Origin: Mesorhizobium sp. AR10
Lineage (GTDB): Bacteria > Pseudomonadota > Alphaproteobacteria > Rhizobiales > Rhizobiaceae
Length of the DNA: 64,000 nucleotides
Assembly (NCBI RefSeq): GCF_024746795.1
Contig: NZ_CP080524.1
Coordinates: forward strand, 6,063,964-6,127,963
Reading direction: 5' to 3'
Part shown: piece after piece, positions 4,638-7,511 of the stretch
Layout of the letters: each line of letters opens with the position of its first letter
Position numbering within the stretch: position 1 is the first letter of the stretch
Program-made: the position numbers and the translations under genes
The notes under the pieces: model-generated
Databases searched by the model: none
What the model saw: the letters and a program-made list of their open reading frames with translations, nothing else
Told to the model about the DNA's origin: nothing

Positions 4638-4871
4638 GTGAGGCGATATTCCCCCACGCTTCGACCAATGACTGCGCAGCGGATTGAGCGAGCGCTCGAC
4701 CGCGTCGCCGAGATTATCGTGGCGAGAGGCGACCATGGAGAGGCATGGCTCCCGCTATACGAGCTTTTGGAACGCGCCCTGCAGGATCATCGAGCGAAGG
4801 AGGAACGCCTCGCCGCAGTGCGCCAGCGTGTCAAACGATCGCTGGATCGAACGGCAGAACGATCTTCATAA
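4638..4871 (+). CDS. Small charged hypothetical protein
   Basis: The 77-residue product is rich in Arg and Glu and predicted to be helical: TAQRIERALDRVAEIIVARG, then LYELLERALQDHRAKEERL. Similar small proteins are common in Mesorhizobium accessory DNA, but no function is known. I prefer the GTG at 4638, preceded by AAAGG, over the ATG at 4668, which has no clear ribosome site. The last 41 bases overlap the 3' end of the convergent integrase gene. The 230 bases upstream, back to the tRNA fragment, hold no convincing gene. Confidence 0.5.
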   Translation: MRRYSPTLRPMTAQRIERALDRVAEIIVARGDHGEAWLPLYELLERALQDHRAKEERLAAVRQRVKRSLDRTAERSS

Positions 4872-6192
4872 GTTCCTCTTGCCACATCTTCATGTCGCCG
4901 CCCTCGCCGTATTTCGGACGGTCGATCGTGTGGCCCATCAGCATGCGCCGGAGCTCCTCGTCCAGCCTACCGTTCTTCATGCGGTCTTCGAATGAATGGC
5001 GCAGGGAATAGACGGTGTGATTATCGGTCGGGAACAAGTTGTGGCTCTTGAAGTGCTTGTTGAGCAGGGCTGACAGCGACGCCTCGCGATCCTTGTACCG
5101 CGGGAAGCCTCTGGGATGCTTTTTGAACACCTCAAGCGCCACGCCGACCAACGGCACCTTGCGCAACGACGAGGCGGTCTTGATCTCTCGTGGATCGTCG
5201 GGATCGTCGCGCGGCTCGACTGAAATGTGCGGCACCTCGTGGTCAACATGGATGACACCGGCATGCAGGTTCGCGAGTTCGCTTGGTCGGGCGCCTGTCT
5301 CAGCGAAGGCAAGCACGATTCCCCGCGCCTCCTCATTGAGCGCCGCAAGCGCGCCAGGCGCAAATATCTTGTCGCGAATCCAGTCGGTCGGAAACGGCGG
5401 CCGACTGCGCTTCGATTTGTCGGTGAATGACAGATCGGCGAACGGGTTCTTCTGTTCGGGGAAACCGAGATGGCGAAAGTAGTCGGCGTAGAGGGTTCGA
5501 AGGTTGCCTATGTTTCGGTTGCCCGTCGACGCTGAACGGTCCGGTCGCCCTTTGTCGGGCGCAACACGGTCCAGCCAATATTTATGTACCGCTCGCGCGT
5601 CGTCGCGCGTGATCTCGCTCATTGGCTTGTCTGCGACCAGGCCGATGAAGACATCGACGCTCATTTCGCGCTTTGCCTTCCAGCGCTTCTTCTGGTCAGG
5701 ACTTTTTGTGCGGATTTCGTCGCGGGCAATCTCGTTGAAGTATAGCTTCAGCGCTTCCGATATCTTGTCGTCAGGGCGGGCGACCGCGCCGCCAACCGCG
5801 TCGACAGATGGTGATTTGGCAGGCTCGCCTATCGTGCTCTCTACGCGCTGCAGGATCGTATCGAGGGGCTCGGCGACCAAGATCTCGGCGAGCGGCCGAT
5901 AGACGAATCCCAGAGACTCGGCGCGCTTGACGGCTTGGCGGTATCGGACACGCGCCGCCTGTGGACTTTCACCCAACATCAACGAAGCCCACAACGCATT
6001 GTCGGCAGCCTCGTGGAGATCTCTGGCGGTACGCGCCTTTATGCGGTCGGTGGTATCGAGGGCGCGGCGCACGAACACGCCACGCTCGTCGAGGTCCCTG
6101 ACCTCTCTGGGCACCCGGCGATAGTAATGGAAATGATCGCCCCTCAGTTGCAGAAAGCGGTCAGGATTATGCTCTTCGCGTCGTCTTCCCAC
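4831..6192 (-). CDS. int: Site-specific tyrosine recombinase (DUF6538-type integrase)
   Basis: This 453-residue integrase begins with a DUF6538-like N-terminal domain (FLQLRGDHFHYYRRVPREVR), then a core-binding region at about 145-245 and the catalytic domain from about 270. The catalytic residues visible are R302 in GARPSEL, K338 in EIKTASSLRK, R398 in YSLRHSF, H421 in LMGH and the nucleophile Y428. The His that usually precedes the second Arg (H-x-x-R) is Tyr395 here, a tolerated variation in the family. The start is a GTG at 6190-6192, next to a triple 12-base repeat. The gene sits between a tRNA-Arg 3' fragment and the 3' end of tRNA-His, the usual setting for integrases that insert into tRNA genes. 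It appears intact. Confidence 0.92.
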   Translation of the reverse strand: MGRRREEHNPDRFLQLRGDHFHYYRRVPREVRDLDERGVFVRRALDTTDRIKARTARDLHEAADNALWASLMLGESPQAARVRYRQAVKRAESLGFVYRPLAEILVAEPLDTILQRVESTIGEPAKSPSVDAVGGAVARPDDKISEALKLYFNEIARDEIRTKSPDQKKRWKAKREMSVDVFIGLVADKPMSEITRDDARAVHKYWLDRVAPDKGRPDRSASTGNRNIGNLRTLYADYFRHLGFPEQKNPFADLSFTDKSKRSRPPFPTDWIRDKIFAPGALAALNEEARGIVLAFAETGARPSELANLHAGVIHVDHEVPHISVEPRDDPDDPREIKTASSLRKVPLVGVALEVFKKHPRGFPRYKDREASLSALLNKHFKSHNLFPTDNHTVYSLRHSFEDRMKNGRLDEELRRMLMGHTIDRPKYGEGGDMKMWQEELMKIVLPFDPAIV

Positions 6193-6321: not shown

Positions 6322-6398
6322 TGGTACCGTTGGCTGGGATCGAACCAGCGACCTCCGGATCCACAATCCGGCGCTCTAACCATCTGAGCTACAACGGC
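6322..6398 (-). tRNA. tRNA-His (anticodon GTG)
   Basis: The minus strand folds as a full cloverleaf. The acceptor strands are GCCGTTG and CAACGGT, the D arm has GCTC/GAGC, the anticodon stem CCGGA/TCCGG encloses TTGTGGA (anticodon GTG), the T arm is GCTGG/CCAGC, and CCA is encoded. Position 1 pairs G with U72, the discriminator is A73, and the base before position 1 is T, so no G-1 is encoded. That combination is the unusual tRNA-His of many alphaproteobacteria, whose HisRS does not require G-1. The 3' end faces the integrase gene and may be an integration target. Confidence 0.95.
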
Positions 6399-6553: not shown

Positions 6554-6651
6554 GCAGATGCAAGAGTCATACAGCGTCCTTTGCACGTCCAAGAGGACGC
6601 GCGGCGCTGGAGCAAAAGGCCGCTTCCCACTTCGGCTTCAACTTTCGCCGG

Positions 6652-6762
6652 ACAAAGAAAAAGGCCGGCGGGAGGAGGTGCCGGCCTTTTCCTGTTACGA
6701 GCCAGCGGGAGGAGGTGCTGGCTGGTCACCCCGGAGAGCAGAGGGAGGAGGTTCCACTCGCC
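6652..6762 (-). ncRNA. Triple hairpin RNA with anti-Shine-Dalgarno loops (cuckoo/CcsR-like)
   Basis: On the minus strand three successive stem-loops carry the identical ten-base loop ACCTCCTCCC. In plus coordinates the loops are 6743-6752, 6707-6716 and 6670-6679. The stems are AGTGGA/TCTGCT with two wobble pairs, GCCAGC/GCTGGC, and AAGGCCGGC/GCCGGCCTT. The last hairpin runs into TTTTTCTTT, so it is also an intrinsic terminator for minus-strand transcription. CCTCCTCCC loops define the cuckoo RNAs of Rhizobiales and the CcsR RNAs of Rhodobacter. The loop can pair with ribosome binding sites or be the target of an RNA-binding partner. The array lies 85 bases after the phasin stop codon, so it may be processed from the phasin 3' UTR or have its own promoter in 6760-6840. 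Confidence 0.72.
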
Positions 6763-6846
6763 GGGTATTCAGTTGGTCAACTTATTGCACATCTATTTGT
6801 CTGATAAAATGCGACGTTTTGTTGCATCCTCAGATCATGCGCAATG

Positions 6847-7302
6847 TCAGGCGACCTTGATTTCCTTCATGGCCTTCTCGAAGGCGGTCTTGATCGGCTT
6901 GGAGACGTCCTCGGCCGCCTTGGAAGCGACGGTCTGGAAGTCCTTGGCCTGCTCGACGGTCGTCTCGACGCGCTTGCGCAGGAATGCGGTCTGCAGCTCG
7001 ACGACTTCCGACAGCGACTTGGCGCCGATCAGAGCTTCGAGATGCGAGAAGCCGGCTTCGGCATTGGCGCGGAAAGCGGCGATGGTCTTCAGCGACAGGT
7101 CGCTGGAAACGGTCTTGGCGGTTTCAAAGGTGGACTCCAGAGCCTTCTGGGTCTCCTCGGCGCCGGTCTTCATCTTGGCATAGGCTTCCTTCGACTGCTC
7201 AACGCCCTTTTCGGCGAAAGCGCGGATCTGGTCGGTGGCCTTGGAAGCGTCAAAGCTCGGGAATTCAACGTTTTCGATCGTGTCAGTTTTGGTCCTGGAC
7301 AT
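6847..7302 (-). CDS. phaP: Phasin, polyhydroxybutyrate granule-associated protein
   Basis: This 151-residue, wholly helical, Ala/Lys/Glu-rich protein contains the phasin pattern EQSKEAYAKMKTGAEETQKA, then SLKTIAAFRANAEAGFSHLE and VVELQTAFLRKRVETTVEQA. Phasins coat polyhydroxybutyrate granules and control their size and surface. The start at 7302 follows AAGGATGGAAA. From memory, the S. meliloti counterpart beside cbrA is phaP1 (SMc00777), and the gene order here agrees. An 11-base inverted repeat 80 bases upstream is a candidate operator. Transcription would continue into the anti-SD hairpin array. Confidence 0.88.
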   Translation of the reverse strand: MSRTKTDTIENVEFPSFDASKATDQIRAFAEKGVEQSKEAYAKMKTGAEETQKALESTFETAKTVSSDLSLKTIAAFRANAEAGFSHLEALIGAKSLSEVVELQTAFLRKRVETTVEQAKDFQTVASKAAEDVSKPIKTAFEKAMKEIKVA

Positions 7303-7380
7303 TTTCCATCCTTTTCAGTGGCGGCGGCTTTGACAGAAAGCCGTCTCGTTCATGTATGATGGCAATATATAGGTTTTTTT

Positions 7381-7410
7381 GTGCATTGCAATATCTTTGT
7401 TGCAGTGCAC
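7381..7410. promoter_or_regulatory. Candidate phasin operator (PhaR/AniA-type)
   Basis: GTGCATTGCAA (7381-7391) and TTGCAGTGCAC (7400-7410) form an inverted repeat with one mismatch, spaced by eight bases, in the AT-rich region upstream of the phasin gene. PhaR-type repressors that sense polyhydroxybutyrate bind TGC/GCA-rich palindromes, so a PhaR site is likely but unproven. Confidence 0.5.
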
Positions 7411-7496
7411 CATAAATTCTTTCAGGCGTTAACCAAGCGCCCAGATTCCGACCGCTGCACGTTATGGCTTGTGGACCTTCGCCCCGCCGGCTTTTA

Positions 7497-7511
7497 TTAA
7501 CAAAGCGTTAA
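7497..7511 (+). promoter_or_regulatory. CtrA-type box (TTAA-N7-TTAA) upstream of the CbrA-like kinase
   Basis: TTAACAAAGCGTTAA matches the full alphaproteobacterial CtrA consensus exactly and ends 37 bases before the kinase start codon. Another half site, GTTAACC, lies near 7428. Binding by CtrA is inferred. Confidence 0.55.

Follow-up and report, generated by a model that had tools for sequence, protein, structure and literature searches.

The best described relatives of the array reported here belong to the ar14 family, that of Sinorhizobium NfeR1, which the available accounts portray as three hairpins with variable stems and an ultraconserved CCUCCUCCC left unpaired (PMC10746234, PMC7143759, PMC3927594). 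SmelA075 of S. meliloti is described likewise in one of them (PMC3927594). As far as the published account of NfeR1 goes, its loops silence mRNAs redundantly at the translation start, and the RNA is trans-encoded and has a promoter of its own, together with an NtrC site of the form TGC-N11-GCA (positions -116 to -101) and an LsrB site (-72 to -60) (PMC10746234). A second route to RNAs of this kind is reported for CcsR, which RNase E releases from the ccaF1 3' UTR (PMC8625941, PMC10253847), and MmgR of S. meliloti is presented as a small RNA with a link to phasins and storage, affecting phasin synthesis (PMC7143759). Here, we compare these systems with a locus in a 64-kb stretch of Mesorhizobium DNA, called the window below.

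Structure and family of the array

Folding a 121-nt stretch of the window's minus strand yields three hairpins, at 6730..6765 (hairpin 1), 6700..6723 (hairpin 2, with a 7-pair core) and 6656..6693 (hairpin 3), each with ACCTCCTCCC in its loop. Their 10-nt loops, at 6743-6752, 6707-6716 and 6670-6679, all read ACCUCCUCCC, and the fold and the motif positions together confirm a preliminary description of this DNA, which had noticed three minus-strand hairpins with the same ten-base loop. The word CCTCCTCCC occurs three times in the 64-kb window (6670-6678, 6707-6715 and 6743-6751), always on the minus strand. A count of three is weak evidence alone, being reached by 4 of 100 shuffles; the three occurrences lie within 82 nt, each inside a hairpin loop. 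At -57.1 kcal/mol, the predicted energy of the stretch compares with a shuffle value of -36.56 (sd 3.58; z -5.74), and none of 200 shuffles folded as well. This z-score and the conservation of stems and pairs described below lead us to reject a chance origin of the array.

The stems differ among the three hairpins. Hairpin 3 has 14 pairs and is followed by TTTTTCTTT, so the last hairpin does run into a T tract (6654-6662, minus strand), as had been claimed, and we presume that it is the intrinsic terminator of both the RNA and the phasin mRNA. A terminator scan that covered loops of 3-8 nt reported no terminator at hairpin 3, whose loop has 10 nt.

The Rfam model of ar14 (RF02344) matches positions 6654..6769 of the minus strand with 75.1 bits (cut-off 58.8) over all model positions 1-123, and this covariance model search bears out the proposed membership in the anti-SD hairpin RNAs. 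The array lies where the preliminary description had put it, at 6652..6762, but the whole element as delimited by Rfam is a 116-nt RNA with somewhat different ends. Three hairpins with CCUCCUCCC unpaired in every loop and variable stems with kept pairing, the features of ar14, are found in the window array (the latter in 18 arrays, with the window's own fold as the structure), as is the row of anti-SD hairpins that characterises cuckoo RNA and the CIN1 locus. Judged from its sequence, the array is a regular ar14 member, and an anti-SD hairpin RNA. Three loops are the normal ar14 state; since three hairpins define the family, the triple is not unusual, contrary to the earlier view that set it against pairs, and the Rfam match and the published three-hairpin description mean that the array as such is already known.

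Covariation of the stems was assessed in 18 arrays, 4 from the genus and 14 from 13 other genera. Standard pairs occupy 94.0% of the pair cells (84.0% in shuffles), and 63 cells are changed on both sides (18.8 in shuffles); slid structures reach at most 61.0% standard cells and 11 double-change cells, although the tested structure is the window's own fold and has an advantage over slid versions. The pair cells kept amount to 84.4% in hairpin 1, 100% in hairpin 2 and 99.2% in hairpin 3. Among 46 three-loop loci we counted 33 distinct stems for hairpin 1, 16 for hairpin 2 and 13 for hairpin 3, and uninterrupted stems of at least 7 pairs flank 157 of 183 loops, versus 19 of 1460 random upstream places in the same loci. 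The claim that stems vary while pairing is kept is borne out, mainly between genera; within the genus hairpins 2 and 3 hardly vary: the stretch holding them has a mean conservation of 0.98 (89 rows), which places compensation mostly between genera. The conservation profile leaves out three loci (L063, L064 and L065).

The array might be only a decorated terminator or 3' end stabiliser of the phasin mRNA, devoid of any action in trans. Hairpin 3 is indeed terminator-like, and plain hairpins stand in its place in some genera (as second hairpins in L094 and L100, and in L348 and L349). A terminator, however, needs no fixed loop, and the loop letters stay while the stems are rewritten between genera and show a conservation of 1.0 within the genus set, which counts against this reading and makes it improbable in our view.

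The phasin gene and its neighbours

The gene upstream of the array is a phasin gene, as the preliminary description had it: the minus-strand ORF at 6847..7302 (151 aa) matches PF09361 with 59 bits (cut-off 24.9). No DUF1127 gene is present directly upstream of the window array, the place being taken by the phasin. A sigma-70-like match at 7364..7391 on the minus strand (9/12 matches) is a candidate promoter ahead of the phasin gene and the only such match on 6600-7500 (shuffle mean 0.2). On the other side, a tRNA-His (GTG) found by ARAGORN at 6322..6398 (minus strand) is the downstream neighbour that marks the syntenic place. Directly behind it lies a recombinase-like ORF (4831-6192, minus strand), an arrangement as in a tRNA-integrated element; its phage-integrase and DUF6538 matches are weak, both below the Pfam cut-offs, and a search of the window for a second tRNA 3' end, as an att site of this neighbouring integrase would provide, found none.

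Because the phasin leader contains AGGA, which is able to pair with the loop, one could imagine an autoregulation in which the loops target, in cis, the SD site of the phasin itself. The match comprises 4 bases only, and the median pairing energy is similar with and without an array (-7.2 kcal/mol in loci with arrays, n=43; -7.1 in the genus, n=107; -6.8 without arrays, n=70). Pairing in cis with the phasin SD thus finds no support, and we regard such autoregulation as very improbable indeed.

Conservation within the genus

An ar14 search of 61 genomes of the genus gave a match in all 61, above the cut-off in 60, while 14 control genomes gave none. For the genus set the best phasin was fetched from 30 of 31 genomes, and the phasin-array link is above the Rfam cut-off of ar14 in 28 of the 30 genus phasin loci, the window's own included. 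The order in the genus loci is phasin, array, tRNA-His. A phasin query in named genomes, of which the best 80 of 379 relatives were kept (77 of the 80 titles being Mesorhizobium), showed three CCTCCTCCC within 300 nt of the phasin stop in 77 of these best 80 loci, so that the loss of loops in close relatives, which would have spoken against the preliminary description, was not seen. The exceptions noted in the genus are L059, L230 and L251, where the sequence ends at a contig end, L064, with two CCTCCTCCC and no Rfam match, and L241, with one altered loop. Downstream, a tRNA-His word is present in 68 of the 78 loci having enough sequence, a count that relies on one short word and misses variants. 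In G012 and G145 the array lies behind the main phasin, and none lies behind the secondary phasins (L089, L099 and L109).

Distribution in other genera

A hairpin-3 pattern with up to 3 mismatches was matched in 18 of 151 genomes of the family, which we take to be GTDB's Rhizobiaceae: the window's own, one congener and 16 others. Each of the 16 matches outside the genus is closely preceded by a phasin in the same orientation. A phasin match was present in 113 of the 151 genomes drawn from the family, and phasin loci were read in 110; these loci exclude the window's own genome (read apart), G176, G061 (in-frame stop) and a fragment (G197:C3:118846), and the main phasin of G012 was counted in the genus set. 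At least one CTCCTCCC lies within 160 nt behind the stop in 43 phasin loci of these 110 genomes, and the reverse motif was found behind the phasin in 0 of 116 loci. It was the hairpin-3 pattern that first led to 16 of the 116 loci, whose phasins all appear in the phasin-match list too; the 100 loci chosen by phasin homology alone comprise 73 without a loop, 9 with one, 13 with two and 5 with three. Counted by genus, loops stand behind the phasin in 32 of 80 genera outside the window's own (15 with three, 11 with two, 6 with one). Since 48 of the 80 have no loop and 17 have two or one, the trait is often absent or reduced. The ar14 cut-off was passed by 17 of 20 and 3 of 7 loop-bearing loci in two Rfam batches, and by none of the four loci without loops that were given to Rfam. 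The genus and many other genera thus keep phasin and array in this order, so that the location given in the preliminary description is a conserved one.

In Shinella (L348) and S. meliloti (L349) the order of phasin and tRNA-His is kept, and the 400 nt that follow the phasin lack CTCCTCC; visual inspection suggests that the array is replaced in both by a plain hairpin with T residues. Six named records of a plasmid collection (two Phyllobacterium, Shinella, S. meliloti, S. fredii and Aminobacter; 6 of 83 matching records), these two among them, all have no CTCCTCC within 400 nt of the phasin stop. Two loci of another genus (L094 and L100, genus code g31) retain just the first anti-SD loop, the loop of their second hairpin being short and plain. 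Mapped onto a phasin tree (122 rows, few columns), the array label requires 14 changes, versus about 38 in shuffles; the well supported branches force only 3 array changes, and the tree is compatible with gain or loss. The series of three, two, one and no loops represents natural material on the gain, reduction or loss of such RNAs.

Of 101 family genomes, 79 carry a triple array, as do 23 of 150 order genomes, of which 18 belong to other families; the backward pattern used as a control was found in one genome in each draw. Among 60 array loci from order and family genomes, 25 lie behind an ORF that matches a DUF1127 profile built from the window genus, 2 behind a phasin and 33 behind neither. 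Six overlapping triple matches behind a DUF1127-type ORF in another family of the order (G219:C6:917491-917790) indicate about eight anti-SD loops in a row. The window's own genome holds six ar14 copies. Two tandem copies, with a total of six anti-SD loops, lie there behind a DUF1127 gene (L001/L002, C2:3696528-3696829), and the DUF1127 ORF of this genome (PF06568) ends 6 nt ahead of its array RNA.

The gap site and the promoter question

Outside the genus, the distance from the phasin stop to the first loop is 24-39 nt in 39 of 43 loci; a gap of this size cannot accommodate a promoter, though one may lie inside the phasin gene. In the window, 77 nt separate the phasin stop from the start of the array RNA, about 60 nt more than in other genera, and the gap contains the sequence TGC-N11-GCA (6810..6826, minus strand), a putative regulator site to judge from its conservation. 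It is present in the gap of 78 of 79 loci of the genus set, with a column conservation of 0.95 versus 0.73 before and 0.66 after it, and at that distance from the first loop in 0 of 43 loci of other genera. Compared over ar14 copies, it lies at -57 to -60 in 6 of 6 phasin-linked copies and 6 of 6 stand-alone copies adjacent to a LacI-type gene, and in 0 of 6 DUF1127-linked and 0 of 5 other copies, three of these five having a looser CGC-N11-GCA at -56 or -63. The chance of TGC-N11-GCA in a 4-nt window is 0.002; as copies within a class are orthologs, the shared offset amounts to about one independent coincidence and not twelve. Regardless of position, the window holds 23 occurrences where 32.7 are expected. 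The LacI-adjacent copies (L005, L271-L274 and L279) carry the site at -57 to -59 and match it again about 28 nt beyond that point; the LacI-type gene next to L271 was checked by Pfam.

Between the phasin stop and the array we found no match to the NfeR1 signature CTTAGAC-N17-CTATAT (up to 3 mismatches), and no sigma-70-like core was recognised there. The signature does match with 3 mismatches once inside the phasin gene, at 7226-7255 (6 matches in the window, 2.07 expected). The LsrB site TGCA-N6-GCAT is absent from the 150 nt ahead of the window's copy, where TGC-N11-GCA is present. The 77-nt gap and the conserved site make an own promoter likely in the window genus, and the array RNA there probably also has one, for which this region is the candidate. 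A separate promoter fits these two features, which weaken the phasin-transcript step for the window; the suggestion of a 3'-UTR-derived RNA is thus better supported in other genera than in the window's own.

This raises the question of whether the ar14 gene of the genus stands alone under a regulated promoter of its own, with the phasin as a mere neighbour and hairpin 3 ending both transcripts. The long gap, the near-universal gap site, with an offset equal to that of the LacI-adjacent copies and lacking in the DUF1127-linked ones, and the existence of an own promoter in NfeR1 would all agree with such a gene. On the other hand, the linkage to the phasin is strict in the genus and recurs in 32 other genera, most loci of other genera have a gap that could not hold a promoter, and neither an NfeR1-like nor a sigma-70-like core lies between phasin stop and array. 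We therefore consider a purely stand-alone gene unlikely.

A proposed phasin-hosted repressor and its possible targets

Our preferred interpretation, to which we assign a probability of roughly 0.6, is that the phasin transcript hosts an ar14 repressor RNA, with hairpin 3 as the phasin terminator, and that this RNA acts in trans on strong SD sites. If hairpin 3 ends the phasin mRNA, as its structure suggests, phasin transcription would also make the array, which cleavage could then free, in the manner reported for CcsR RNAs hosted by DUF1127 genes. Each CCUCCUCCC loop would pair with strong SD sites of other mRNAs and block their translation; the phasin copy has loops of the NfeR1 type, which by analogy suggests a like silencing action. 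The targets may mostly be mRNAs of uptake systems, and cells that make the storage-granule protein would in that case reduce nutrient uptake. In the window genus the RNA would probably have its own start as well, governed by the TGC-N11-GCA located 57-60 nt ahead.

The sequence GGGAGGAG is found 3-11 nt before an ATG at 38 sites in the window's own genome (6 for the backward pattern), two of which lie on the strand opposite ar14 copies. ORFs taken from 30 of the 38 sites include 21 of at least 80 aa; the 20 scanned include, as plain counts, 9 transport components and one dehydrogenase acyltransferase (E2) subunit. These ORFs fit the theme reported for NfeR1 (ABC transporters) and one of those reported for CcsR (pyruvate dehydrogenase). 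Such sites would serve every ar14 copy of the genome, not the phasin copy alone.

A phasin as the host gene of an ar14 array looks new, in that a non-exhaustive search of the literature joining phasins with anti-SD RNAs met no description of a phasin host; an earlier mention is possible. The anti-SD arrays known so far are separate RNAs or tails of DUF1127 genes, and the phasin, with arrays behind it in many genera and a stepwise reduction in some, would be a further host; carbon storage in rhizobia and their relatives would in this way be linked to a multi-target repressor. More tentatively, and with more doubt than confidence, we suggest that the phasin-hosted arrays constitute a separate ar14 lineage, where granule making directly yields a broad repressor of nutrient uptake, and that the window genus has gained a second input through the NtrC-type TGC-N11-GCA. 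If this were true, carbon storage and nitrogen status would meet in one RNA.

Comparison with known systems

MmgR, in the account that links it with phasins, is not described as encoded behind a phasin gene, unlike the window array (PMC7143759). According to the published descriptions, ar14 / NfeR1 (Smr14C2, SmelC397) and SmelA075 share with the window array the three hairpins, the CCUCCUCCC loops, the variable stems and the presence of several copies per genome. As a small RNA, NfeR1/ar14 measures about 115-125 nt and NfeR1 is Hfq-independent; the window element is predicted at 116 nt. NfeR1 is portrayed as trans-encoded with its own promoter, whereas the window array has a phasin as its host gene, and the distance of the window's TGC-N11-GCA differs from those given for both the NtrC and the LsrB sites of NfeR1. 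The place between phasin and tRNA-His in S. meliloti has no loop, unlike that of the window; the NfeR1 locus itself is known to us from descriptions. With cuckoo / CcsR1-4 (CIN1 locus), the window array has in common that anti-SD hairpins directly follow a protein gene and lie in its 3' UTR. The host reported there is a DUF1127 gene, from whose mRNA the RNAs are cut, while in the window it is a phasin, the DUF1127-hosted kind being present elsewhere in the genome. It is the short-gap phasin arrays of other genera that these DUF1127-hosted arrays resemble.
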